Virus record (IMG/VR): IMGVR_UViG_3300028610_000967
Coordinates: 1-36,738 of that record
Reading direction: 5' to 3' (one strand)
DNA: 36,738 nt
Origin: a virus
The notes beneath the pieces are model-generated. The model saw nothing but the letters and a program-made list of their open reading frames with translations. It ran no database searches and was not told the DNA's origin. Position numbers and translations under genes: made by a program. This document shows, piece by piece, positions 1-36,738 of this stretch. Every line of letters begins with the position of its first letter. Within the stretch, counting starts at the first letter, position 1.

Positions 1-144
1 CCTTTTGGAATGACATATCATCTATGAGAGACAAACCACAGTACTCATCAAATAAGGCTATGGCTTTCTCGTCCCCATCTAAAGTTTGTTTTATAACTTC
101 CTCGTACAGGGGGCAGGTGGCTTCATCTTCCCAATCAAATTCCA
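1..144. repeat. Terminal direct repeat, left copy
   Basis: The first 144 bases are identical to the last 144 (36595-36738). The repeat lies inside one open reading frame that continues seamlessly when the ends are joined, so it most simply reflects assembly of a circular or circularly permuted molecule. A physical terminal repeat here would cut a replication gene at the genome end, which is unlikely. Confidence 0.95.
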
Positions 145-1312
145 ATCTATGTGATAATTCATGATCTATATCCCATTGTTCCAATTCCCCGGTTTTTATA
201 TTTATAGTCCCATTCATAAGACATATCCTATGCCTCATTTGATCCTCTTTAGGGTCCACGCCGGGGGTATACCCAAATATAATTTTTTCCGTTAATGTAT
301 GCATGATAGATATTGCGGACTTAGCCTCCCGCTCTTTAAGGGTAAGAGAATGCATATACATGCGTCTCATAATATTTGGTACATTGACAACGGGCCAATA
401 CCCTTCTTCATATGACCTCATTTGCCCTTTTATTGTGGCTATCTTGGTCATGGTTCCTAATTCTTCCAAAGCCCAATTTGCCATTTTTCTTTCAGGAGGG
501 ATGGATTTTGGTTTACTGCTATCAGTCATGCCTTTGGCACGTGCACTGTCTATCCATCCCTGTATGATCTTTGTGGATTGGGGCCACTTATATACCTCCC
601 CGGCCCGGAGACATGCCTCCCGCTTCGCTCTCTCCACGCGGGTATGTATATGGGGGTCCAGCCAGCCTCTGGACACCGCCAGCGCGACGGCCCGGACGGA
701 GACATCATGGGTATCGCCACCCCCATCTACCCCTGCCCATATCATCTCGTTTAAATCTAGAAAAGGACCTCCTTTACTTTCACATATAGCTACTATTTCA
801 TCAACCATATCTACGTTCAACACAGGTAGTCTATCGATAGAAGATAAAAGGTCCTCTCCTATCCACACATATTCCATCTTATCGGGATGGATAGATGGTG
901 GTATAACTGTCTGACTACCTGAGCATAAGAACTCTATCGTCGGTTTTTTAGATTTTTTGTGCTTAACTTTTTTATTAGTTATACTCTTATCTGCCAGCAT
1001 AAATATAGTAAGTCCTTTTTTACCCTTCTTTGCGCATGGATAATTCCCTAAGGCGGGTAACATATCAGGCATAACTTCTTCATTATCTATATCTACTGCT
1101 ATCAAAAATAATCCATCCCCTACTTTAGTCCCCATAGCTAACCCAATATTCTGATCTGGGTGTTTGTCACACCATTCACTTATTTCCTCTTTGGTTGGTT
1201 GTCTGTGGCAGTATTCTTGCCATTTGGTCATAACAGGTCTTTTCATACCTAGCCTGATTGGTATAGGAGAAAGCCCAGCTTTAATGTAATCTAAACACTC
1301 ACGCTTGTACAT
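1..1312 (-). CDS. PrimPol-SF3 helicase (phage/plasmid primase), N-terminal part cut by the contig edge
   Basis: I translated this by hand because the frame runs off the left edge. It starts at ATG 1312 and joins the frame at 36594-35816, giving a 696-residue protein. The N-terminal 200 residues fit the bifunctional primase/polymerase (AEP, Prim-Pol) family: a 'GLAMG' stretch is followed by 'VDID' with the metal-binding pair Asp74 and Asp76, and a later 'PPSIHPD' motif holds His142. A middle region (about 200-400) links to an SF3/D5-type helicase with Walker A 'GPGGNGKGT' at residues 443-451. The family primes DNA synthesis and unwinds the template. The start overlaps the SNF2 gene's stop by 14 bases, so the two are probably translationally coupled. 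The family call is secure; catalytic activity is inferred. Confidence 0.9.
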   Translation of the reverse strand, partial: MYKRECLDYIKAGLSPIPIRLGMKRPVMTKWQEYCHRQPTKEEISEWCDKHPDQNIGLAMGTKVGDGLFLIAVDIDNEEVMPDMLPALGNYPCAKKGKKGLTIFMLADKSITNKKVKHKKSKKPTIEFLCSGSQTVIPPSIHPDKMEYVWIGEDLLSSIDRLPVLNVDMVDEIVAICESKGGPFLDLNEMIWAGVDGGGDTHDVSVRAVALAVSRGWLDPHIHTRVERAKREACLRAGEVYKWPQSTKIIQGWIDSARAKGMTDSSKPKSIPPERKMANWALEELGTMTKIATIKGQMRSYEEGYWPVVNVPNIMRRMYMHSLTLKEREAKSAISIMHTLTEKIIFGYTPGVDPKEDQMRHRICLMNGTINIKTGELEQWDIDHELSHRLEFDWEDEATCPLYEEVIKQTLDGDEKAIALFDEYCGLSLIDDMSFQK

Positions 1313-2732
1313 GTTTCCTCCCTACTTCCGCCAATATAGCTTCCGCTAAATCTTTTTTGGATTGTAGGGCCTTAACCACTCTTTTATCTACTGGTGAATT
1401 AATCACATCAACATATGTAACATTCATATCTTGCCCCCATCTATGATTTCTATCTTCTATCTGTACTCTGTCATCAAGTGAAAATGAGTTTTCATAGAAG
1501 AATGTATAATTACATCTATCATTGCCCGGACCCCCTAATAGAGTATGTCCGTATTTTGCCGCTGATATCTGGCATATAGCTATTCTACATTTAGAATCAT
1601 TATTAAATCTGTGTTTTTCCTCATCCAAATCTAACTCTAATGTTCTCATCTTGGATTTCCCGGCGAGTAAGGCAGGATTGTACTCTTTTAATCCTTCCAG
1701 CAGATTATCTACTGATGTGTTGTAATTAACAGTCACTATAACTTTGTTTGTGGTCTGCTCCATGAATGACAATAATTCCTTTAATTTTGGGGGCATATTA
1801 GTTATATTTATTGATTTTCTCTCAAACGCATTTGTTATAGGATTAACTTCCTCATAATATAAAAATCCGCTACTTATCTGCTGTAATTTACCTAGCTGAC
1901 TGATTGCCATATCTACCGAAATTTCTATGTCCCCATCTACAAGAGTCTGGAAATTATTCTGCATCTCTTTGTAATGCTTCATTTGGTCCTTATTCATTTC
2001 CACATCTCTTGTGACATAAGTTTTTTCAGGCAGATCGGTATATTCTGATTTCTTGGCATAAAAGGCGTTAGGTTCTATTATATTCTGTAATTGCTCTTCA
2101 TTCCTAGCCCCTATTATCTTTCTATTCATGTATCCGCCCATACGACAAAATTTATTGCGGAAGGCATAGAAATTAAATGTTATATGTATCGCCCCAATGA
2201 ATACTAATTGTGCCCATAAGTCATGTGGTCCTTGAGAAATTGGGGCACCGGACAATATTCTACGATAGTTGGCCTTCATGCCTATTTCGAGGATAGCTTT
2301 AGTCCTTCGGGCTTTGTTATTTTTAATTTGGATACTTTCATCAAGGACAAACATTACATTACCTCGGTGTAATTTGATAATCTCAGGTATAATTTCACAG
2401 GCTTTAGCCCCCCCAACTGCGAATGCCTCATAATTAATAATATGTAAATATTCCAACTCCTCTATAGGGGGGTTTTCTGGCCAAACATACATTGAAGCTT
2501 CTACCCCCCTCAATTTGGCCTCTTCTATCCAGTTATTTTTCAAACTGTGGGGGCAAACCACTATTAACGGGAAGACTCCATCTATACTAAGCCATTCTGC
2601 TAGTATAACTGATGTTTTACCAAGGCCCATCTCCATGAAGTATGCAAATCCTTCCTTACCTGCCGCCATGCGGAGGGCCTTAGTTTGCACCTCATATGGT
2701 TCGCAGTTAAGAAGCCAAGTCATCATCATCAT
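1299..2732 (-). CDS. SNF2-family DNA helicase/translocase
   Basis: About 477 residues with the two RecA-like lobes of superfamily 2 SNF2 ATPases. Motif I is 'MGLGKT', motif II is 'DESIQIKN' (a DEAH-box variant), motif III is 'LSGAPIS', and the second lobe holds the 'R..Q.EDRNHRWGQ' arginine-finger region. Phage SNF2 proteins are thought to remodel or translocate on replicating DNA; the exact role is not known. The frame is open further upstream (to 2777), but a run of four ATG codons at 2732-2721 lies within the end of the HD-domain gene, with a weak GAG Shine-Dalgarno just before it, so I start here; any of the four Met codons is possible. It sits between the HD nucleotidase and the primase-helicase, overlapping both, in one operon. 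Confidence 0.88.
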   Translation of the reverse strand: MMMMTWLLNCEPYEVQTKALRMAAGKEGFAYFMEMGLGKTSVILAEWLSIDGVFPLIVVCPHSLKNNWIEEAKLRGVEASMYVWPENPPIEELEYLHIINYEAFAVGGAKACEIIPEIIKLHRGNVMFVLDESIQIKNNKARRTKAILEIGMKANYRRILSGAPISQGPHDLWAQLVFIGAIHITFNFYAFRNKFCRMGGYMNRKIIGARNEEQLQNIIEPNAFYAKKSEYTDLPEKTYVTRDVEMNKDQMKHYKEMQNNFQTLVDGDIEISVDMAISQLGKLQQISSGFLYYEEVNPITNAFERKSINITNMPPKLKELLSFMEQTTNKVIVTVNYNTSVDNLLEGLKEYNPALLAGKSKMRTLELDLDEEKHRFNNDSKCRIAICQISAAKYGHTLLGGPGNDRCNYTFFYENSFSLDDRVQIEDRNHRWGQDMNVTYVDVINSPVDKRVVKALQSKKDLAEAILAEVGRKHVQA

Positions 2733-3327
2733 TACTCGGCGGTATAGAACATGCGTTTTCTTGGTATATAACCGCATTCCTACATAATGTATCCAATTTT
2801 AATGTAGTATTATTACACCAACCACTACTATGTATAGCTTCATCAAGTCTTTTGCGTGACATTTTAAAATATGCTTTAACCGATTTGTTGCCCATCTGCA
2901 ATTCGGATGCTAATAAGCATGTCTCGTCCAACAGATTAGCTATTTTTAATACCCAATATTCATTGAAACTCTTATTCTCCCCATAATCTTTAAATATTAA
3001 ATATGAAGACATACCAAGAAATCTTTCATCGGATTGTACCGATATATAATCGTTGAACATGTTCCTATCTATAATATTTCTTTTTGCGGGACCGGGTATA
3101 TCACTGGTGTATGATTCCTCTATGTCATGTAACAAAGCTTTCATTACAATCTTACCTTTATCCACATTAACGGACATTTCTTCATTTGCTATATCAGCTA
3201 TTTCATACGCATAGATTGCAACAAAAAAACAATGTTCTGCCACGGATTGCTCTTTGATTAATCTAGCAATATTCCATCTAGTAACATGTGCCAAATCCCT
3301 CAATTCTCTTGGGAACGGATTTTCCAT
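2707..3327 (-). CDS. datZ: HD-domain deoxynucleotide phosphohydrolase, probable DatZ (dATP-removing)
   Basis: A 206-residue YfbR-like HD phosphohydrolase. The metal set is visible: His32 in 'SVAEH', His67-Asp68 in 'LLHDIEE', and Asp134 in 'ANLLDE'. The 'RW.I' motif near residue 17 and 'SDIPGPAK' near residue 75 are typical of 5'-deoxynucleotidases and DatZ. In Z-genome phages DatZ hydrolyses dATP and its lower phosphates so that adenine is not incorporated. With purZ, a mazG-type gene and a polymerase just upstream, that role is the best inference here; a general dNMP 5'-nucleotidase is the alternative. ATG 3327 has a good Shine-Dalgarno (AGGAGA). The gene follows a strong terminator at 3342-3381 and overlaps the SNF2 gene by up to 26 bases. 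Confidence 0.85.
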   Translation of the reverse strand: MENPFPRELRDLAHVTRWNIARLIKEQSVAEHCFFVAIYAYEIADIANEEMSVNVDKGKIVMKALLHDIEESYTSDIPGPAKRNIIDRNMFNDYISVQSDERFLGMSSYLIFKDYGENKSFNEYWVLKIANLLDETCLLASELQMGNKSVKAYFKMSRKRLDEAIHSSGWCNNTTLKLDTLCRNAVIYQENACSIPPSNDDDDLAS

Positions 3328-3341
3328 TTTTGTCTCCTATC

Positions 3342-3381
3342 AAAAAAGGGGGGGAGCGCCTAAAGGATAAACGCTCCCCCC
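3342..3381 (-). terminator. Rho-independent terminator
   Basis: On the minus strand a perfect 10-bp GC stem (GGGGGGAGCG with CGCTCCCCCC, 3372-3381 with 3349-3358) and a 13-base loop are followed by six T (3347-3342). It lies just after the stop of the acidic-protein gene and about 15 bases before the datZ start, so it should end or attenuate the purZ-mazZ transcript ahead of datZ. Confidence 0.9.
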
Positions 3382-3400
3382 AAGTTTAGGCCACGATCGC

Positions 3401-4072
3401 CTATGATTTCCGTAAGAACGGATAGATAGGCTTACCCTTCAATTCTGGCACATCTTCAAAGTATTTTATACCAGTTTGTCTATGCACCCACATACGAGAG
3501 ATTTTTTGATTATTCTCTCTATACCCATGACCAATTTCAAGGAACATGTTCCTATCATATTGTATTTTTTCACCGTTTTCTTCAACGATTACTTTCATGG
3601 GTAATGAGGCTTCTGATTGTGGTTCAGAAGGCATCCTCTTATGAGATTGGGATATTATCTCCTGCGCTTTGGCAAAGGCATTATCCCTAAGAGTATCACC
3701 AACTTCAAACCTTAATACACTATTAAGGTAGGATGTAAGCGGTATACCATTTTTATCAAATGCGGAATCCATGGCACCACCCACATTACCTTCAATCAGA
3801 GTAAGCACGGTAGATACGGTTATATTGAAAATCTCCGCGTCAGTAAACTTGGGGCTAGCCCCAGCAGGAGATTCATTAGGCTCGTTTTCAGGTTTGGGCG
3901 CTTGGGGCGGATTAGGCTGTCCCGTGGCATCTTTACCTGTATCGGTAGTCTCGGCATCAGATTCCTCTTGCGGGGTTTCCTCCTCCGTCTTGGTATCATC
4001 GGTTTCGGATTTCTCCTCTGCCGTATTAGCAGGCGCACCACCTTGTGCCCCCTTGTTTTCATCAGCCATCAT
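3401..4072 (-). CDS. Acidic-tailed protein of unknown function
   Basis: A 223-residue protein. The first 75 or so residues are low-complexity, rich in Glu, Asp, Thr, Pro and Ala, and probably disordered. The rest (about 75-223) looks folded, with an amphipathic helical part and a C-terminal part rich in aromatic and basic residues. I do not recognise a family. It is the last gene of the purZ-mazZ operon: its ATG (4072, or the next codon 4069) sits behind AAAGGAGA and overlaps the mazZ stop by about 11 bases, and a strong terminator follows. Acidic tails occur in phage single-stranded-DNA-binding proteins, but nothing else here supports that, so the function is left open. Confidence 0.8.
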   Translation of the reverse strand: MMADENKGAQGGAPANTAEEKSETDDTKTEEETPQEESDAETTDTGKDATGQPNPPQAPKPENEPNESPAGASPKFTDAEIFNITVSTVLTLIEGNVGGAMDSAFDKNGIPLTSYLNSVLRFEVGDTLRDNAFAKAQEIISQSHKRMPSEPQSEASLPMKVIVEENGEKIQYDRNMFLEIGHGYRENNQKISRMWVHRQTGIKYFEDVPELKGKPIYPFLRKS

Positions 4073-4556
4073 CTTCTCCTTTCATGTTAGAGTTGCTGGT
4101 TAATGAATTTTCTGCGATCATCATAGCAAAATTTGCTATATCTGCCGCCTCAAAATATACATCATATGGAGTGCCATTGTCTATAGCGTCTTTTAATTCC
4201 ATGACTTCATCAATTAGATGTTTGAGTAAAGTCATATGATCTGCTTTACGCCAACCATCAACACCTTTTTTCTCATCATCCCGCAATAATTTAGTTTCCA
4301 TTGCCTTTGAGAATTTAACTATGTCATCTCTTGGTTCACCCCAATTTATTGCCCTTAACAATAAATCATTGGGACTAAATTTCTCTGCTTCTAAATTAAT
4401 GGCCCATATGGGGTTTTTAGTGGCACACACACCACAAGCATATTCAATTATTCCTGTTCTCCCATTTATTGCCCAATCAAACATATCTTTACTAGAAATA
4501 GGTTTATTACACATTCTACACTTATCTCCATACGATATAATAGGGCGGGTTTTCAT
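4062..4556 (-). CDS. mazZ: MazG-like nucleotide pyrophosphohydrolase with zinc ribbon, probable MazZ
   Basis: A 164-residue protein in two parts. Residues 13-44 hold two CxxC pairs (Cys13/Cys16 and Cys41/Cys44), a zinc-ribbon pattern. Residues 80-150 match the MazG helical fold, with the metal motif ExxE then ExxD (Glu117, Glu120, Glu136, Asp139). In Z-genome phages MazZ converts dGTP to dGMP, which feeds PurZ. Placement two genes after purZ, joined through a small ORF, supports that role; a generic MazG house-cleaning enzyme is the alternative. The N-terminal ribbon is unusual for short phage MazG proteins. The start is fixed by a strong GAAGGAGA Shine-Dalgarno and by an ATGA overlap with the preceding small ORF. 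Confidence 0.82.
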   Translation of the reverse strand: MKTRPIISYGDKCRMCNKPISSKDMFDWAINGRTGIIEYACGVCATKNPIWAINLEAEKFSPNDLLLRAINWGEPRDDIVKFSKAMETKLLRDDEKKGVDGWRKADHMTLLKHLIDEVMELKDAIDNGTPYDVYFEAADIANFAMMIAENSLTSNSNMKGEDDG

Positions 4557-4669
4557 ATTTCATCTCCTTCTCTGTACTCAGGGAGGTACTCTGAAATGTC
4601 TCTCCGGTATGTGCATACCCGGCCCTGTACACTCGGTATATCCCGTATGGCACCGTCGGGCGCTCTCAT
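4553..4669 (-). CDS. 38-residue ORF coupling purZ to mazZ
   Basis: A short frame that fills the purZ-mazZ gap exactly. Its ATG overlaps the purZ stop (TAATG at 4671-4667) and its TGA overlaps the mazZ start (ATGA at 4556-4553). The product begins MRAPDGAIRDIPS and is rich in Arg, Glu and Tyr, with no membrane segment or known motif. Both junctions are the overlap types used for translational coupling, which argues for real translation; no strong Shine-Dalgarno is visible (GTAGGG only). It may be a functional micropeptide or simply a coupling device. Confidence 0.6.
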   Translation of the reverse strand: MRAPDGAIRDIPSVQGRVCTYRRDISEYLPEYREGDEI

Positions 4670-5715
4670 TAGACTAGGGACCCTACGACATATGGCCTGA
4701 TGTCCTCCACGGACGGACCATAACCCAAAAGTAGGGGCTTTTCAGTTTCCTTAGTTATCATACTCGCTAATCTTTCAACTCCGTCATCATCCATATAATT
4801 ACAAAAATTAAGGAATGTAACATCAGGCTGGAGGGCCTCACACGCTTCTTCCATTTGAGTTATTGAAAATTTAGCTATGCGCCTTGGTCTTTTAGTAAGA
4901 GTAGTTAATTCGGGTTCCACTCCAAGAGTATTCCACGATAATTCTTTCCCATCATAATAAAAGGGACCAGAATTACCTAATATGTGATTACCATCCATTA
5001 TATGACCCACTCTTATGGGATAAGTTCTCATTGTCATAATCACCCTACCTAAGTAGGATGGGTGTACCTGAGCATCAGATAGGAATTGTCCTATAGACAC
5101 CTCCCTACTTGTAACATAAGGATACTTATATCCTGAATTTATACCAAGCCCGTATCCTTGAGATGTTTCCATGAACACAATTTTTCCCTCTACATTTATA
5201 CACATATTCAGTTTTAGTTCATATATAAGGGGTTTTAGAGACTCGCATTGTTCTGCTATACATGCAATGTCGTCTCCACCCCTGCCTCTTGCTACCTTTC
5301 TCATCATTGCCGCCCCTGTGCCTGATCTGGTAGAAGCAAAGCCGGTAAACGGATTATCAAGGTCATGTTCATATGATCTGCAAGTATCATTAACCACAGC
5401 GGCACGTGGATGAATAGACACCCTATCATGTTTAACACCATATTCTTCCATCTCCTGAAATAATACCTCCGGGTCTATTATCGAGCCTGCCGTAAAGAAT
5501 ATATGTGCATCCGTATTTATCACCCCTGATATAGGTAGCTGGTGACATATAATCTTTTTACCACCTATGATACATGTGTGGCCAGCATTTGGGGAACAGT
5601 TGGAAACAGCTATATCAATTTTAGATTTAGTAGCTATATAACCAGCCATTAATCCCTTGCCAGTGGACCCAAATTGTCCATCTACAAGTATATTAACTTT
5701 TTTAGGTGACAGCAT
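4669..5715 (-). CDS. purZ: PurZ, dGMP-dependent adenylosuccinate-synthetase homologue (2-aminoadenine synthesis)
   Basis: A 348-residue member of the PurA/PurZ family, shorter than cellular PurA (about 430). The N-terminal phosphate loop reads 'DGQFGSTGKG' where PurA has 'GTQWGDEGKG', so the catalytic Asp of PurA is Ser17, a change reported as characteristic of PurZ. The 'NAGHT' motif with its catalytic His, 'METSQGYGLGINSG' followed by 'YPYVTSRE', 'RTYPIRVG' and 'RRIAKFS' are all present. PurZ joins dGMP and aspartate to make succino-2-aminodeoxyadenylate, which host PurB and kinases turn into dZTP. The ATG overlaps the DUF6378-like gene by 14 bases behind a GGGAGAG ribosome-binding site. 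The family call is very firm; substrate is inferred from the Ser change and the neighbours. Confidence 0.93.
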   Translation of the reverse strand: MLSPKKVNILVDGQFGSTGKGLMAGYIATKSKIDIAVSNCSPNAGHTCIIGGKKIICHQLPISGVINTDAHIFFTAGSIIDPEVLFQEMEEYGVKHDRVSIHPRAAVVNDTCRSYEHDLDNPFTGFASTRSGTGAAMMRKVARGRGGDDIACIAEQCESLKPLIYELKLNMCINVEGKIVFMETSQGYGLGINSGYKYPYVTSREVSIGQFLSDAQVHPSYLGRVIMTMRTYPIRVGHIMDGNHILGNSGPFYYDGKELSWNTLGVEPELTTLTKRPRRIAKFSITQMEEACEALQPDVTFLNFCNYMDDDGVERLASMITKETEKPLLLGYGPSVEDIRPYVVGSLV

Positions 5716-6067
5716 TATGATCTCTCCCTAATTCTTTTGCGATTTGTGCGTAATTCGATATATCATCGTAATTATCTTCATGAAATTGACCTAAAGCTAT
5801 CCTAGATAATTTAAGCATTATCATAGATATAACTTCTTGCTCAGAGGCGGACACAGAATCATTATGAAGACAAGCATTTCTAAATACGCGATTAAAACTG
5901 GCCAATACCCTAAAAGTTAAATTAGGTGGACCATAAATAGACTCCCTTTCCTCCATTATACCTACCATTCTCTCTCCGGGCATTAATCTCTTTTCATTGG
6001 CTTTGGGGCGTAGAGGGTCGTTATTAGTTTTTCTACGCCCCATCTCGTCCCTATTTTTCTTTGACAT
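5702..6067 (-). CDS. DUF6378-like small phage protein
   Basis: A 121-residue protein. The core is 'ERESIYGPP' followed by a helical stretch with 'MIMLKLSRIA' and 'DNYDDISNYA', the pattern of a family common in phages and prophages that I recall as DUF6378. Its biochemical function is not established to my knowledge. ATG 6067 has a good AAGGAG Shine-Dalgarno, which means the first 85 bases overlap the end of the nuclease gene in another frame, a long overlap for this genome. It lies directly before purZ in the modified-base operon, so a role in nucleotide metabolism or replication is possible but not shown. Confidence 0.78.
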   Translation of the reverse strand: MSKKNRDEMGRRKTNNDPLRPKANEKRLMPGERMVGIMEERESIYGPPNLTFRVLASFNRVFRNACLHNDSVSASEQEVISMIMLKLSRIALGQFHEDNYDDISNYAQIAKELGRDHNAVT

Positions 6068-6405
6068 ACCAATTCTCCTTCTGTTGCGTATATAGCTTTA
6101 TGATTTCTACTGGCATACATTACCCATTCTCCGGGCTTCGGTCTTATACAAATAACCCATCCAGCAATGTCTCCAGCAGTTTGTAATGATAATATTTCTG
6201 CTCTTTGTACAGGTGTTAATTTTAATTTTTGTCCTAAAGAAGTAGCAAATTTTAATTCCATCCACATACAAGGATAATGCGGATGCTTAACATAAATATC
6301 TGGTATACCAGCAAACATCTTATGGGATATATACTTGGCGTATGCACCCTGTACTCTAAATTCCTTAATTAATTCAGTTCTAAATTGTGCTTCATTATTC
6401 GCCAA
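5983..6405 (-). CDS. VRR-NUC-like endonuclease (Holliday-junction-resolvase type)
   Basis: A 140-residue protein. 'FAGIPDIYV' followed 14 or so residues later by 'MWMELKFA' gives the GxPD and ExK catalytic pattern of the PD-(D/E)XK VRR-NUC nucleases. 'LTPVQ' then follows, as is usual in that family. In phages these enzymes resolve branched DNA or help degrade host DNA, the role T7 gives to gp3. The likely start is TTG 6405, placed 7 bases after GGGAGG; the first internal ATG would remove the conserved N-terminal helix. It overlaps the polymerase stop by 11 bases and the DUF6378-like gene by 85 bases. Nuclease assignment is good; the resolvase role is inferred. Confidence 0.78.
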   Translation of the reverse strand: MANNEAQFRTELIKEFRVQGAYAKYISHKMFAGIPDIYVKHPHYPCMWMELKFATSLGQKLKLTPVQRAEILSLQTAGDIAGWVICIRPKPGEWVMYASRNHKAIYATEGELVCQRKIGTRWGVEKLITTLYAPKPMKRD

Positions 6406-8146
6406 AACTTGCCTCCCCCCAATTTTTTCCGGTTGAACTATCTACTCTCAACGGTACTTTTAATGTTATAGGCTGGCTTCTCCCAAAATTGGTCATCATA
6501 CGGACAGCTACATCATTTAATCCTGGGTCATCCTTTATCTGCCAGCATAATTCATCATGAACCTGTAATAACATATCCACATGTTCGTTACATTTAAAGT
6601 ATTCATCTACTTCTGCCATCTTTAATTTAGTAATGTCAGCTGATGTACCTTGTATTATTTGATTTCCAGCTTTGTGTGCAAATCTATAATCAGGAAAACG
6701 CCTCCTTCTGCCAAGTGCCGTATAAACATGTCCCCTCGTCTTGGCCCTGGATTCTGCCTTCTTCAAAAAATGTCTTGCTTCCGGTATTAATATATGATAT
6801 TTTCCTATTAATTTTTTCGCCTCTAATACTGTAATTCCTAAATTTTGCGCTAATGCCTTTGCCCCCATCCCATAAACCATACCTAAATTCATGCGCTTGG
6901 CTGTCGGGTCGCGTTCCACATTCAGCAATTCAGCTATATTACTATGAATATCTATGGGTGGTTCGGCATTATACCCATCAACTAACATCTTATTGCCCGT
7001 ATAATGGGTGAAAACCACAAACTCCTGCTGTGCATAATCATTTGAGTACCAAACGTATCCTTCATCCGGCACAAATATAGACCTGAATAGAGGTGCTAAT
7101 TCCTTATCCCGTTTAGGCACTTGTTGCATATTAGGGTTAGATGAAGATAAACGCCCGGAAACCGTACCGTAATCCTCCTGCTTCAATTGATTAAAATTGG
7201 TGTGCACTCTCCCATTAAACATGTGCCTGTCTATCAGTGGTTCTAAGAAACTATTTAATAAATTACTTACCTTTTTTGATCTTAATATTTTATTGCCTAT
7301 ATCATGGGTTCTTAACCACGCCTCAGGAAAAGAAGGGTTACCTTTTTCAGTCATCGGCCACCCTGTCTGCCCATTTTCTTCCATAAATTTTTGCATTTGC
7401 TTCGTTGATCTAGGGTTGAAGTCATCCGGTAATGCTCTATTTGCCTCCTCAAGCATTTCTGACAGCTTAAGTTTAACTACCGCAAGTCTATCCTCATCTA
7501 CCTTAACCCCCTTCCTCTCCATCCTAAATAAGGATTTAATAACCCTGCATTCTACTTCCCATACCCGCCTCAATTCTTCAAAATCCAACAATTCTTGTTG
7601 TTTTTGCCATATTTGCCATGTTGTAGTACCATCCCCCTTTGCATATTCATGAGCCATTTCATCATCAGCAGGTAATTTATGAAAATTCTCCATTTGCTTT
7701 TGTACAGGGTTCTCCCCAAACTTTAATGATAGATACTCATACATAATTTTAGATTTCTTCGGCTCTACTCCCATCAACACGGCCTGGGGTTCCAGTGCAT
7801 ATCTACCACAATTCTCATCTATGAGCGCCGCATTAACCATAGTACATTCAAGATCATGGTCCAATAGACTTATACCCTCATTCATAAGCATGTGCATATC
7901 AAATTTAAGGGCATGCCCCACTATTCTCGTATCTTTACGTAATGACTCTGACAACCAGTTGGATACGTTGTTTGCCTCTATATTAGGACCAGTTTCATGT
8001 CTAACAGGTATATAAAATGAGTCTCCCTCCATCGGGCCAAGGGTGATCACATAACCACAAATCCTGTCCCGTTTCCAGTCCAGTCCTGTGGTTTCCGTGT
8101 CTATAACGACGGTTTTAGCGGCCAATAAGTTGGGTAATACTGACAT
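6395..8146 (-). CDS. dpoZ: Family A DNA polymerase with 3'-5' exonuclease, probable DpoZ
   Basis: 583 residues if started at ATG 8146 (a GTG at 8149 is also possible). The N-terminal DnaQ-like exonuclease shows 'IDTETTGLDW' (Asp16, Glu18), 'HALKFD' (Asp83) and 'YAKGD' (Tyr168, Asp172). The polymerase half has 'SGRLSSSNPNMQQVP', motif A 'NDYAQQE' (Asp370), motif B 'AKRMNLGMVYG' (Lys417, Leu421, Tyr425) and motif C 'VHDE' (530-532). There is no 5' nuclease domain, as in T7-like phages. In Z-genome phages the homologous DpoZ favours 2-aminoadenine over adenine. Leu replaces the usual Phe or Tyr of the O helix, and Val replaces the usual Arg after motif A. TGA of the preceding small gene overlaps this ATG (TGATG). 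Confidence 0.92.
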   Translation of the reverse strand: MSVLPNLLAAKTVVIDTETTGLDWKRDRICGYVITLGPMEGDSFYIPVRHETGPNIEANNVSNWLSESLRKDTRIVGHALKFDMHMLMNEGISLLDHDLECTMVNAALIDENCGRYALEPQAVLMGVEPKKSKIMYEYLSLKFGENPVQKQMENFHKLPADDEMAHEYAKGDGTTTWQIWQKQQELLDFEELRRVWEVECRVIKSLFRMERKGVKVDEDRLAVVKLKLSEMLEEANRALPDDFNPRSTKQMQKFMEENGQTGWPMTEKGNPSFPEAWLRTHDIGNKILRSKKVSNLLNSFLEPLIDRHMFNGRVHTNFNQLKQEDYGTVSGRLSSSNPNMQQVPKRDKELAPLFRSIFVPDEGYVWYSNDYAQQEFVVFTHYTGNKMLVDGYNAEPPIDIHSNIAELLNVERDPTAKRMNLGMVYGMGAKALAQNLGITVLEAKKLIGKYHILIPEARHFLKKAESRAKTRGHVYTALGRRRRFPDYRFAHKAGNQIIQGTSADITKLKMAEVDEYFKCNEHVDMLLQVHDELCWQIKDDPGLNDVAVRMMTNFGRSQPITLKVPLRVDSSTGKNWGEASFGE

Positions 8147-8325
8147 CACTTGGTGTGCCTATTAATATTATTTGCTATACGTTGTGCGGCTTCCCGATCA
8201 ACTTTGCCTCCGCCATCTCTAGCCTTACCGGTGGCACCCGACTTTTTCTTGGCGGTTGCTATCCTGCCTGTGGCCGCTTCCACAATGCGGAATCTATTAC
8301 CTCTTTTAATTACTTTAACTGGCAT
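8146..8325 (-). CDS. Small basic phage protein (59 residues)
   Basis: A short frame beginning MPVKVIKRGNRFRIVE and ending NNINRHTK, rich in Lys, Arg, Gly and Ala. It resembles small basic proteins often found next to replication genes in phages; no function is known to me. ATG 8325 has an AAGGAG ribosome-binding site about 12 bases upstream. Its TGA overlaps the polymerase ATG by one base, which suggests coupled translation. A nucleic-acid-binding role would fit the charge but is only a guess. Confidence 0.75.
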   Translation of the reverse strand: MPVKVIKRGNRFRIVEAATGRIATAKKKSGATGKARDGGGKVDREAAQRIANNINRHTK

Positions 8326-9075: not shown

Positions 9076-9915
9076 CTAAAAATCACCTTTACCGTCATCC
9101 GCCTCTGCTTTATTAGGAGCGGTTTCTTGTGTCTTAGCTTCATCCTTGATGTCAAGACCCTCGCTCCTAAACAATTCATATCTAGATTCTAAAGTCTTGA
9201 ACAAATCCTCATCTTCAATGAGGCCCTCAGCCCTGAATTTATAATTCATAAACTGCTGACTGTCATTATTGGTGTCCATCCAGCTAGACATTTTAAATAT
9301 CATCCCATAACTTGGGGCCTCAGATATTTTCAATTTAGCCATAAATTTTTTGGCCATCTTGATTGAGGCTCTGGACATGCGGATTACAGCAGGGGATAAT
9401 TCAGGGAAATCCAACAATTGAACCACTATATAATAACCGTAAGTGGCGGCTGGAGGAGAATTTGAGTCCTCAGGGTCATAACTACCCCAGGCACCTAACC
9501 CGGATTCTGCAACTGTGGGTTTCAAGGTCCAAGTTACGGACCTTTTTACCCCTTTTGTGGGATGAATTTCAAACTCGCCCATAGGAGGGGACCAGTTCTT
9601 CCCATCATCGGCACGGGCTAAGATACCCCCGCCATCCCATAATGGGTTCCATAGAACATAGCGCGTGGTTACGAAAAGAGGTACGATACGTAATTCAGTA
9701 CCTAATTCCTTCTCCGCCACGCTATGGTAAAATTGCCCTGCCGCGCATCCTTCCTCTAACACTTGAGGTGAGATACCCTGCAAAAGCTGGATAACCGGCA
9801 TTTCATAATCACCCCTATCGAGGTTTTCTGTACCCTGACCCCCCCTGCCTTGCATAAAGCTTGGCACTTGTTGGGCCGGGGCGTTGTCCGGTTTGTTAAC
9901 AACTTCTTTGCTCAT
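9076..9915 (-). CDS. Conserved phage early protein of unknown function
   Basis: 279 residues. The N-terminal 30 residues are low-complexity. The body carries 'DYEMPVIQLLQGISPQV', 'ILARADDGKNW' and 'DSNSPPAATYGYYIVVQLL', a pattern I recall from hypothetical proteins near replication genes of podoviruses and siphoviruses. The C-terminal 30 residues are acidic and Lys-rich. An acidic tail after a beta-rich body is also seen in phage single-stranded-DNA-binding proteins, and no other such gene was recognised here, so that role is possible but unproven. The ATG follows AAAGGAAAC. A terminator-like hairpin follows the gene. Confidence 0.75.
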   Translation of the reverse strand: MSKEVVNKPDNAPAQQVPSFMQGRGGQGTENLDRGDYEMPVIQLLQGISPQVLEEGCAAGQFYHSVAEKELGTELRIVPLFVTTRYVLWNPLWDGGGILARADDGKNWSPPMGEFEIHPTKGVKRSVTWTLKPTVAESGLGAWGSYDPEDSNSPPAATYGYYIVVQLLDFPELSPAVIRMSRASIKMAKKFMAKLKISEAPSYGMIFKMSSWMDTNNDSQQFMNYKFRAEGLIEDEDLFKTLESRYELFRSEGLDIKDEAKTQETAPNKAEADDGKGDF

Positions 9916-9942: not shown

Positions 9943-10242
9943 TTAAGAGTTGGTAGTTTCAATTTGATCTATGCCTAATAATTCTTTTAATTCTTTTCTA
10001 ATTGCGTCATTCCCCGCACATATGCCTTCTATATGAGCTTGATCACACAACTCCACAACTTCTCCCACAAGCTCCTCAATATCAATATTTGCTTTATCCA
10101 TGGTTGGAGATTTACGATTCGAAAAGTCCGTGGATATTCTATCACAATATCTAACATCAATCCCCTTGGTTTTAAACAAGGAAACTATAAGTACACCGAG
10201 TATGTGTGCAATGTCCGTATGATTTTTGCTAAATTCGCTCAT
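9943..10242 (-). CDS. Hypothetical protein
   Basis: 99 residues, helical in the second half ('ANIDIEELVGEVVELCDQ'), no recognised family. The ATG overlaps the TGA of the preceding gene (ATGA), which supports translational coupling since no strong ribosome-binding site is seen. A later in-frame ATG at residue 48 is an alternative start. Confidence 0.6.
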   Translation of the reverse strand: MSEFSKNHTDIAHILGVLIVSLFKTKGIDVRYCDRISTDFSNRKSPTMDKANIDIEELVGEVVELCDQAHIEGICAGNDAIRKELKELLGIDQIETTNS

Positions 10243-10817
10243 TTTGCTTTCACTTTTGTCACGCTGATGTTGCGCTTCGCATCCGTATTAAAGATTTCCT
10301 CAGGTAACTCTTTATTTTCCTCCATCATTTCCCGTGCTATACGCGAAAGGGTGCTGGCATTAATAGTGCGGGTTATCTCATCCCCATGACCAATCTTCTC
10401 AAGATAAGCGAAAGCTTCATCCTTCATGCCTGAGGCAACTTTTGCGGAAATAGATGAGGTGGTAGATACTCGAACACCTAATTCATCAATAGTTACGGTT
10501 TTCATTTTTCGCTCATCCATATACTCAGGAATAAGAGTATACGATAATGAACCCTTTAGTGCCTCTAGTTCTGATTTAATCTGCTTTATGTCTTCAATAA
10601 ACTCCAACAACTTCATGTATTTTGTCATGATTTCCCAAAATCTTGAATCAGAGGACGTTAGATCAGCTTTAATTGCATCTCCTGCGTCAGCCGCTTTATC
10701 CGTTATTACGATTAATGCGTGATTATACATGTTATCAGGTTCAATTAATTTATCTAATTCATAATCAATCCCTTGGACAGCTTCAAGTATTTCATGTATT
10801 TTGTCTAGATACTTCAT
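10239..10817 (-). CDS. Gp157-like coiled-coil phage protein
   Basis: 192 residues. The first 95 are helical with a coiled-coil-like stretch. The second half has 'MKTVTIDELGVRVSTT', a helix-loop segment and a final strand 'RNISVTKVKAK'. This layout resembles the siphovirus Gp157-type proteins, which are small helical phage proteins lying among early genes; the similarity is by eye and weak. ATG 10817 has a good AAAGGAAA Shine-Dalgarno, overlapping the preceding gene by 26 bases. The 3' end is ATGA-coupled to the next gene. Confidence 0.65.
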   Translation of the reverse strand: MKYLDKIHEILEAVQGIDYELDKLIEPDNMYNHALIVITDKAADAGDAIKADLTSSDSRFWEIMTKYMKLLEFIEDIKQIKSELEALKGSLSYTLIPEYMDERKMKTVTIDELGVRVSTTSSISAKVASGMKDEAFAYLEKIGHGDEITRTINASTLSRIAREMMEENKELPEEIFNTDAKRNISVTKVKAK

Positions 10818-35586: not shown

Positions 35587-35819
35587 ACGTTCTCATGAAA
35601 ATTCTGGCCATAGCGAAAGATATTCATCCCGCTGGGTCAATTCTTTTCAATATGATTAATTCATGGAGAAAAGGTGAAACTGTCTCCCCCGAAGATCAAC
35701 AAAAAATGATCATTATAATTCAGGAGGAGGAAAAAGAATTTGATGAGCACACTAATGAGGCGTTACAGGCTCTAGGATTTGAAAGTTTGGAAGAATACGA
35801 GGATTCCAAAGAGGGTTAA
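35583..35819 (+). CDS. Hypothetical last gene of the right arm
   Basis: 78 residues, helical: 'IHPAGSILFNMINSWRKGE' then a strongly acidic part ('QEEEKEFDEHTNEAL'). No family recognised. ATG overlaps the preceding stop (ATGA) behind GTGGAGA. Its stop overlaps the stop of the oppositely transcribed primase-helicase gene. Confidence 0.62.
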   Translation: MNVLMKILAIAKDIHPAGSILFNMINSWRKGETVSPEDQQKMIIIIQEEEKEFDEHTNEALQALGFESLEEYEDSKEG

Positions 35820-36738
35820 AATTCGTGACCATCCTTAACCTTAAGCAAGCGGCACCGGATTACTTTATGTCCGAACCGCTTGCTGATAGGGTTGTATCCC
35901 AACCCAACCATCTTTTTACCCCAAAAAATCTCTGAATAAGGTGATTTGAAGCCCATAGCCATTGACCAGTCTCTATAATGACTATATAATATCCTAGAAG
36001 CCGTACCCTTTTCATCTTCCTCACATTCTTCTAATACATCTTTAACCCAATACGCTACAGGATTGTTTTCCAACATATATTGCTCTACGCTCTCCAAACT
36101 TTTCTCAGGTATGTCGAAATCTCCCCTATCGTATAATCTTTTTAATGCCGCAACCCATCTTCTTAAAATCCCTGCTCTCTCTTTATGTAATTTTTTGTCC
36201 AAATCGAAATCCGGCTTATTCACTTTATTTGGGCATTCTAGTATTATTATTCTTCTTTTTAATGCGTGGCTATGATCACTGGTTGATGGCATTTCATTAA
36301 CTAATTCAAGAAATCTAACACTAAGCATTATATTATTTTGTGTCTCTCCGTACAATTTTCTAATGTCAATAGGGTCCCCCCCGGTTATCTTTTTTAAATA
36401 AGTGTCTGATACTAAATTTAATCTAGATTGTTCTCCTGATATATTAATCAATTTACCAACTAATGAGGTCCTTTTTCTTTCATCATTCAGATCAGTTATG
36501 GCGACCGACGATACACTATTCGGATTATGCATATCTCTCAGTACACGGGCCAATGTACCCTTACCATTACCCCCAGGACCTTTCAAAAATAGCACCTTTT
36601 GGAATGACATATCATCTATGAGAGACAAACCACAGTACTCATCAAATAAGGCTATGGCTTTCTCGTCCCCATCTAAAGTTTGTTTTATAACTTCCTCGTA
36701 CAGGGGGCAGGTGGCTTCATCTTCCCAATCAAATTCCA
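35816..36738 (-). CDS. PrimPol-SF3 helicase, C-terminal part (continues at 1312-1)
   Basis: This carries residues about 391-696 of the protein described at 1-1312; the internal TTG at 36628 is not the start. The SF3/D5 helicase is clear: Walker A 'GPGGNGKGT' (443-451), 'LINISGE' (Walker B region), and 'KKITGGDPIDIRKLY' followed by 'LELVNEMP' (sensor 1 and motif C-like Asn) and 'LKRRIIILE' with the Arg finger. The C-terminal 150 residues include a D5-type winged region. It unwinds DNA ahead of synthesis. There is no terminator between this stop and the convergent last right-arm gene. Confidence 0.9.
   Translation of the reverse strand, partial: EFDWEDEATCPLYEEVIKQTLDGDEKAIALFDEYCGLSLIDDMSFQKVLFLKGPGGNGKGTLARVLRDMHNPNSVSSVAITDLNDERKRTSLVGKLINISGEQSRLNLVSDTYLKKITGGDPIDIRKLYGETQNNIMLSVRFLELVNEMPSTSDHSHALKRRIIILECPNKVNKPDFDLDKKLHKERAGILRRWVAALKRLYDRGDFDIPEKSLESVEQYMLENNPVAYWVKDVLEECEEDEKGTASRILYSHYRDWSMAMGFKSPYSEIFWGKKMVGLGYNPISKRFGHKVIRCRLLKVKDGHEF
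36595..36738. repeat. Terminal direct repeat, right copy
   Basis: These 144 bases are identical to bases 1-144, so the contig closes into a circle of 36,594 bases. See the left copy for interpretation. Confidence 0.95.

Follow-up and report, generated by a model that had tools for sequence, protein, structure and literature searches.

Does a compact gene block in the virus record IMGVR_UViG_3300028610_000967 encode the means to build DNA with 2-aminoadenine (Z) in place of adenine, and if so, what would select Z over A? We analysed the entire 36,738-base record (the window), for which a preliminary description had claimed a complete cassette of a DNA polymerase (DpoZ) and the enzymes PurZ, MazZ and DatZ. 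The polymerase, PurZ, MazG-like and HD-domain genes were all found at the place described, in one leftward block on the minus strand. We consider it likely that this block serves as the Z-DNA cassette in a lineage of phages akin to Ochrobactrum phage vB_OspP_OH (MT028492, hereafter OH), with the enzyme activities and the presence of Z in virion DNA predicted from sequence. The window thus probably belongs to a Z-DNA phage using a variant of the known system: the four gene families, PurZ and a MazZ-2-like enzyme were recovered, while several features expected of a canonical DpoZ and one expected of DatZ were not.

In the published pathway, MazZ converts deoxyguanosine triphosphate (dGTP) to the monophosphate (dGMP), followed by PurZ, completion by the host and incorporation by the family A polymerase PolA (PMC8342488, PMC12884076). 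In the window phage, the MazZ-like enzyme would accordingly supply dGMP, which PurZ would join with aspartate to the precursor of the Z monophosphate (dZMP); host PurB and kinases would then complete the triphosphate (dZTP), and PolA would copy the genome, placing Z opposite T. The sequence evidence supports the early steps of this route. Profile hidden Markov models (HMMs) of known Z-phage proteins, built with the window's own sequences excluded, picked the cassette reading frames from all open reading frames of the window, with leave-one-out E-values of 5.7e-146 (PolA), 2.4e-95 (PurZ), 3.4e-22 (HD protein) and 5.8e-9 (MazZ-2). No further window frame was convincingly matched. Since the models single out precisely these frames, the four genes are not chance matches.

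The nearest relative of the window PurZ in an isolated phage is the OH protein (40% identity). Ser17 (in QFGSTGKG) replaces the catalytic Asp of PurA (Asp13 in Escherichia coli), and the protein has Thr273 and the adenine site Asn305-Phe306-x-Asn (PurZ proteins have Gln or Asn at position 308), both exclusive to PurZ, together with the Val241 equivalent followed by an insertion (S-2L numbers). The diagnostic sites read Asp, Gly and Thr-Lys-x-Asp in PurA and Ser/Thr-Met-x-Asp in PurZ0; the roles of these residues were taken from PMC8342488. Phylogenetically, the window protein falls within the PurZ clade (support 100/99), apart from PurA, PurZ0 and archaeal Ser-type proteins. Within that clade, a sub-clade (100/98) joins it with OH and most environmental sequences, and phiVC8, S-2L and SH-Ab form a separate one. 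An identity as PurA was rejected on residues and tree alike. Every residue and tree test thus upheld the earlier assignment, and placement inside PurA is ruled out. We regard the identity of PurZ as secure from its sequence and, because it passes all of these tests, synthesis of dZTP by the window phage as likely.

The MazZ assignment is weaker. The MazG-like protein reaches 16.6 bits with the Pfam MazG model, below the 22-bit cut-off, and is found by a MazZ-2 model built from OH, ZP6 and phiVC8. A MazZ-1 identity was rejected, as the MazZ-1 model misses the protein (E 0.24). Its acidic metal-binding residues E117, E120, E136 and D139 are invariant among 24 relatives. A counterpart of Arg83 was sought at the C-terminus, where there is no Arg but one Lys in ...NSNMKGEDDG. 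The gene lies between purZ and datZ, with one extra gene (3401-4072) intervening before datZ. A structural search with the protein model gave no match at E 0.001, and its top entries were MazG-like folds of weak resemblance; hence the assignment rests on sequence and position. What remains of the earlier MazZ claim is a MazZ-2-like enzyme, weakly matched.

Is the polymerase a DpoZ? Besides an expanded exonuclease region, the phiVC8-like enzymes carry three insertions and the residues Leu455, Phe459 and Gly548, of which Phe459 is the sole signature common to phiVC8-like and Wayne-like DpoZ (PMC8599892). Insertion 1, Leu455 and the catalytic residues of the exonuclease are present in the window polymerase; insertions 2 and 3 are absent, Phe459 is replaced by Tyr (in NLGMVYGMG) and Gly548 by Asn. 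In trees sampled without phiJL001, a non-Z relative of DpoZ, the window-type PolA clade (100/100), which includes OH, comes out as the sister group of phiVC8-like DpoZ (100/100) and not inside it. Joint support of the two clades is 95/92, or 100/95 with other sampling, and the enzymes of non-Z phages and of E. coli that were included fall outside the pair.

Two positions of helix O vary among PurZ-linked polymerases. By alignment, we equate them with Phe762 and Tyr766 in E. coli Pol I; typical PolA has Phe and Tyr there, and the window enzyme keeps the canonical Tyr. In the non-redundant set, 13 sequences combine Leu/Phe with insertion 3. Those without insertion 3 comprise 34 with Met/Thr, 22 with Gln/Thr, seven with Leu/Tyr like the window, and six others. 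The claim of a DpoZ is thus not established by these comparisons: DpoZ_1 is the best-scoring model and the clade is a sister of DpoZ, but the score lies under the model's cut-off and insertions 2 and 3, Phe459 and Gly548 are missing. Two DpoZ groups have been described, matching PurZ and PurZ0 (PMC12884076). We tentatively suggest, as an idea with somewhat less than an even chance of being right, a third PurZ-linked PolA group that would choose Z via a different active site. This group has neither Phe459 nor insertions 2 and 3, and most of its members carry Met or Gln at the first helix-O aromatic position and Thr at the second. Such enzymes may rely on the stronger Z:T pair, and DatZ may thereby have become dispensable. 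In a literature search that did not reach subscription articles such as the 2021 Science reports, no title or abstract on PurZ, 2-aminoadenine or DpoZ mentioned a PurZ-linked polymerase group lacking these features.

The second departure concerns the HD protein. Asp119 of DatZ holds metal A with His34, His66 and Asp67 and has been called strictly conserved across HD phosphohydrolases (PMC8065100). Its equivalent in the window is Asn131 (codon AAT); the other metal-A ligands are retained, as are the metal-B ligands Glu70 and Asp75 and the residues with which S-2L DatZ contacts phosphate and base (Arg19, Trp20, Ile22, Gln29, Ala32, Pro79, Lys81, Lys116). Among 75 non-redundant HD sequences, comprising phage and contig proteins with PurZ in the same locus and E. 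coli YfbR, 69 have Asp at this position; the remainder have Asn (the window and L016), Gly, Ser or Glu, with one gap. The nearest relative, in L011, has the metal Asp. With a single genome to go by, the change in the window may stem from a sequencing or assembly error. In the window (residues 131-134; 2926-2937), L016, L062 and L223, all of which have Asn, Gly or Ser in place of Asp119, the third residue further on is an Asp, which might take over metal binding. The AlphaFold 2 model (mean predicted local distance difference test score 91) matches the folds of YfbR, OxsA and DatZ. The proposed removal of deoxyadenosine triphosphate (dATP) by DatZ is therefore uncertain: the substrate residues are kept, but Asp119 is changed and YfbR is not separated in the tree. 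A DatZ-type HD gene was undetected in seven PurZ contigs of near-genome size (37-44.5 kb) with window-clade polymerases and in seven large ones (67-287 kb), records which may be fragments. With the metal ligand altered in the window and the gene absent from some relatives, DatZ does not seem to be used throughout the lineage.

The block as a whole is shared. The order polymerase, nuclease-like gene, DUF6378, purZ, mazZ, hypothetical gene, datZ and helicase recurs in OH, with mazZ-2 and a small protein before the HD gene, and in dozens of IMG/VR contigs. OH belongs to the same polymerase and PurZ sub-clades, yet polymerase identity is 34% beside the 40% for PurZ, its polymerase has Met and Ser where the window has Leu and Tyr, and its HD protein keeps the metal Asp. 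Vibriophage phiVC8 has homologues of DpoZ, PurZ, MazZ-2 and DatZ and the same purZ-mazZ-datZ order, but its primase lies between the polymerase gene and purZ, and its DpoZ has all three insertions, Phe459 and Gly548 against insertion 1, Tyr and Asn in the window. Cyanophage S-2L (PurZ, MazZ and DatZ with PrimPol) resembles the window in its PurZ and DatZ residue patterns and its PrimPol; unlike the window, it is without PolA (PMC8065100) and uses MazZ-1. The PurZ0/Wayne-type phages likewise combine a PurZ-family enzyme with PolA, whereas PurZ0 groups separately and reads Ser/Thr-Met-x-Asp where PurZ has Asn-Phe-x-Asn, the Wayne-type polymerases lie elsewhere in PolA, and these phages use DutZ/DmtZ (PMC12884076).

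Scans that used just one query protein, either the window PurZ or the polymerase of phiVC8, returned nothing or near-copies only, and profile scans were needed. An IMG/VR profile scan with the window polymerase clade gave 185 relatives. PurZ lay in the fetched locus for 74 of the best 80 that were kept and elsewhere on the contig in L211 and L221 (76/80), a linkage biased upward by the choice of the best 80 and by scan patterns derived from PurZ-linked enzymes. Of the remaining four relatives, L233 and L254 are short fragments, L225 has its polymerase at the end of the contig, and only L224 is a real candidate for lacking PurZ. The window polymerase clade clearly travels with PurZ.

PurZ also occurs outside such cassettes. 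Large viral contigs (67-287 kb; L014 and L020, also L019, L024-L026 and L032) encode PurZ of the window sub-clade with no adjoining Z-cluster and no detected DatZ-type gene; judged by eye, L020 seems to have genes for a RecA-like recombinase and a family B polymerase. Two Proteobacteria/Alphaproteobacteria metagenome-assembled genomes (MAGs) carry a PurZ-type protein in the bacterial chromosome (L097:7983-9026, L098:7992-9029), with the Ser and Asn-Phe-x-Asn residues, 47% identity to the window PurZ and the gene order cmk - purZ - Ham1 - rpsA. Neither PurA nor IMP dehydrogenase was found in these MAGs, which may be incomplete, and their sole PurB match is a FumC-type lyase. Chromosomal PurZ of such similarity was present in just 2/289 genomes searched of the class. 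Further genomes of this class have an additional PurA/PurZ-like gene (L173:1351-2166, L174:1345-2163), which in L173 adjoins a gene with a weak DarG match.

How firmly, then, does the block stand as a Z-DNA cassette? In its favour are the residues and clade of PurZ, the shared gene order, the support for the PolA clade, its linkage to PurZ and the retained HD residues. Besides the bias in that linkage, several points weigh against it. Both best-scoring NCBIfam models fall short: PurZ NF038379 gives 226.3 bits, under a 300-bit cut-off that is a model threshold and no biochemical feature, and DpoZ_1 gives 410.7 bits, under a cut-off of 500. On the 63.7-kb contig L224, a window-clade polymerase (NLGMMYVMG in helix O) lies well inside and PurZ was not found, which may mean that Z was lost or that the contig is incomplete. 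PurZ alone is no proof of Z-DNA either, because the same sub-clade occurs in the cassette-less large phages and the two bacterial chromosomes. We nevertheless consider it extremely improbable that the PurZ-like protein is a PurA that makes adenylosuccinate from IMP in a phage with ordinary DNA: its Pfam family is Adenylsucc_synt, but its Ser, Thr and Asn-Phe-x-Asn residues and its clade are all PurZ-type. Rather unlikely, too, is an ordinary YfbR-like 5'-deoxynucleotidase in place of DatZ. Among solved structures, YfbR and OxsA are nearest in both sequence and fold, with DatZ ranked lower, and E. coli YfbR groups on the window/OH side of the HD tree; the branches are long, however, and the approximately unbiased test does not reject an HD clade of phage proteins only (p-AU 0.26), while the Trp20 and Ile22 equivalents, the place beside mazZ and PHROG 7076 (dATP triphosphohydrolase) as best phage family agree with DatZ.

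If the block is a Z-DNA cassette, how complete is the replacement of A? A true DpoZ, a fully active DatZ and total replacement as in phiVC8 would fit the four families in their expected order, DpoZ_1 as best polymerase model and the retained DatZ substrate residues; given the missing polymerase signatures, the sister position and the Asn at the metal site, we doubt this version. Equally doubtful is partial replacement, in which dZTP is made, yet dATP is removed less effectively and the polymerase does not discriminate strongly. Asn131, the canonical Tyr in helix O, the failure to detect DatZ in the 14 PurZ contigs examined and the lowered substitution with an incomplete Z-cluster in E. coli (PMC8342488) speak for it; the retention of the HD residues responsible for dATP binding and dZTP exclusion, and the tight link of the polymerase clade to PurZ, speak against it. 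Within the Z-DNA reading we prefer, selection of Z over A in this lineage probably does not draw on the full set of phiVC8 DpoZ features, and the published features do not explain the choice. Either (1) the polymerase favours Z by other means, or (2) dATP removal and pool size decide, or (3) replacement is partial. Options 1 or 3 are favoured by the changed metal ligand of the HD protein and by the relatives that lack DatZ.

The genome surrounding the block is probably complete, because an exact 144-base direct repeat lies at its ends (1-144 and 36595-36738) and a primase gene spans both. It is podovirus-like, since it encodes a terminase, a head-tail adaptor, a major head protein, tail proteins and internal virion proteins. 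No nucleotide match to the first 25 kb of the window was found among isolated phages. Three extra genes lie within the block; the DUF6378 gene also adjoins the PurZ gene in OH and several environmental contigs. Pfam gave no match for the small nuclease-like protein, and family-model searches gave no convincing one for the hypothetical protein.

Table 1 Features of the gene block and its surroundings in the window.
Feature	Position	Strand	Evidence and remarks
PrimPol-D5 primase, amino-terminal part	2..1312	-	rest at 35816-36736, across genome ends
SNF2-type helicase	1299..2777	-	family matches, synteny; comes after datZ
DatZ-like HD phosphohydrolase, YfbR-like	2707..3327	-	PHROG 7076, E 8e-21; Asn131 for metal-A ligand Asp119
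Hypothetical protein between mazZ and datZ	3401..4072	-	L011, L012 and L015 have weak homologues in the same position
MazZ-2-like MazG-fold pyrophosphohydrolase (putative, dGTP to dGMP)	4062..4556	-	leave-one-out E 5.8e-9
PurZ, 2-amino-deoxyadenylosuccinate synthetase	4669..5715	-	family models, residues, tree
DUF6378 protein	5702..6067	-	Pfam PF19905, E 1.4e-10; OH protein, E 5.3e-23
Small protein with GxPD...ELK motif, VRR-NUC/PD-(D/E)XK-like by eye	5983..6405	-	syntenic with putative nuclease of OH
Family A DNA polymerase with 3'-5' exonuclease domain	6395..8149	-	NCBIfam DpoZ_1, residues, trees; GTG start at 8149
Pam3 gp34-like protein	9076..9915	-	Pfam PF23977, E 2.6e-40; upstream of polymerase in conserved gene order
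Homologue of OH protein annotated as Gam-like host-nuclease inhibitor	10239..10817	-	PHROG 2378
PrimPol-D5 primase, carboxy-terminal part	35816..36736	-	same gene as 2..1312

No single element has been found to explain the preference of these polymerases for Z over A (PMC8599892), and a large PurZ-linked clade without most of the described features opens this question to comparison. The window phage is a good test of Z selection, as both its polymerase and its dATP-removing enzyme are without features thought typical, and relatives devoid of DatZ offer a test of whether a polymerase able to choose makes the removal of dATP unnecessary. The clade would also provide new enzymes for work with Z-DNA.

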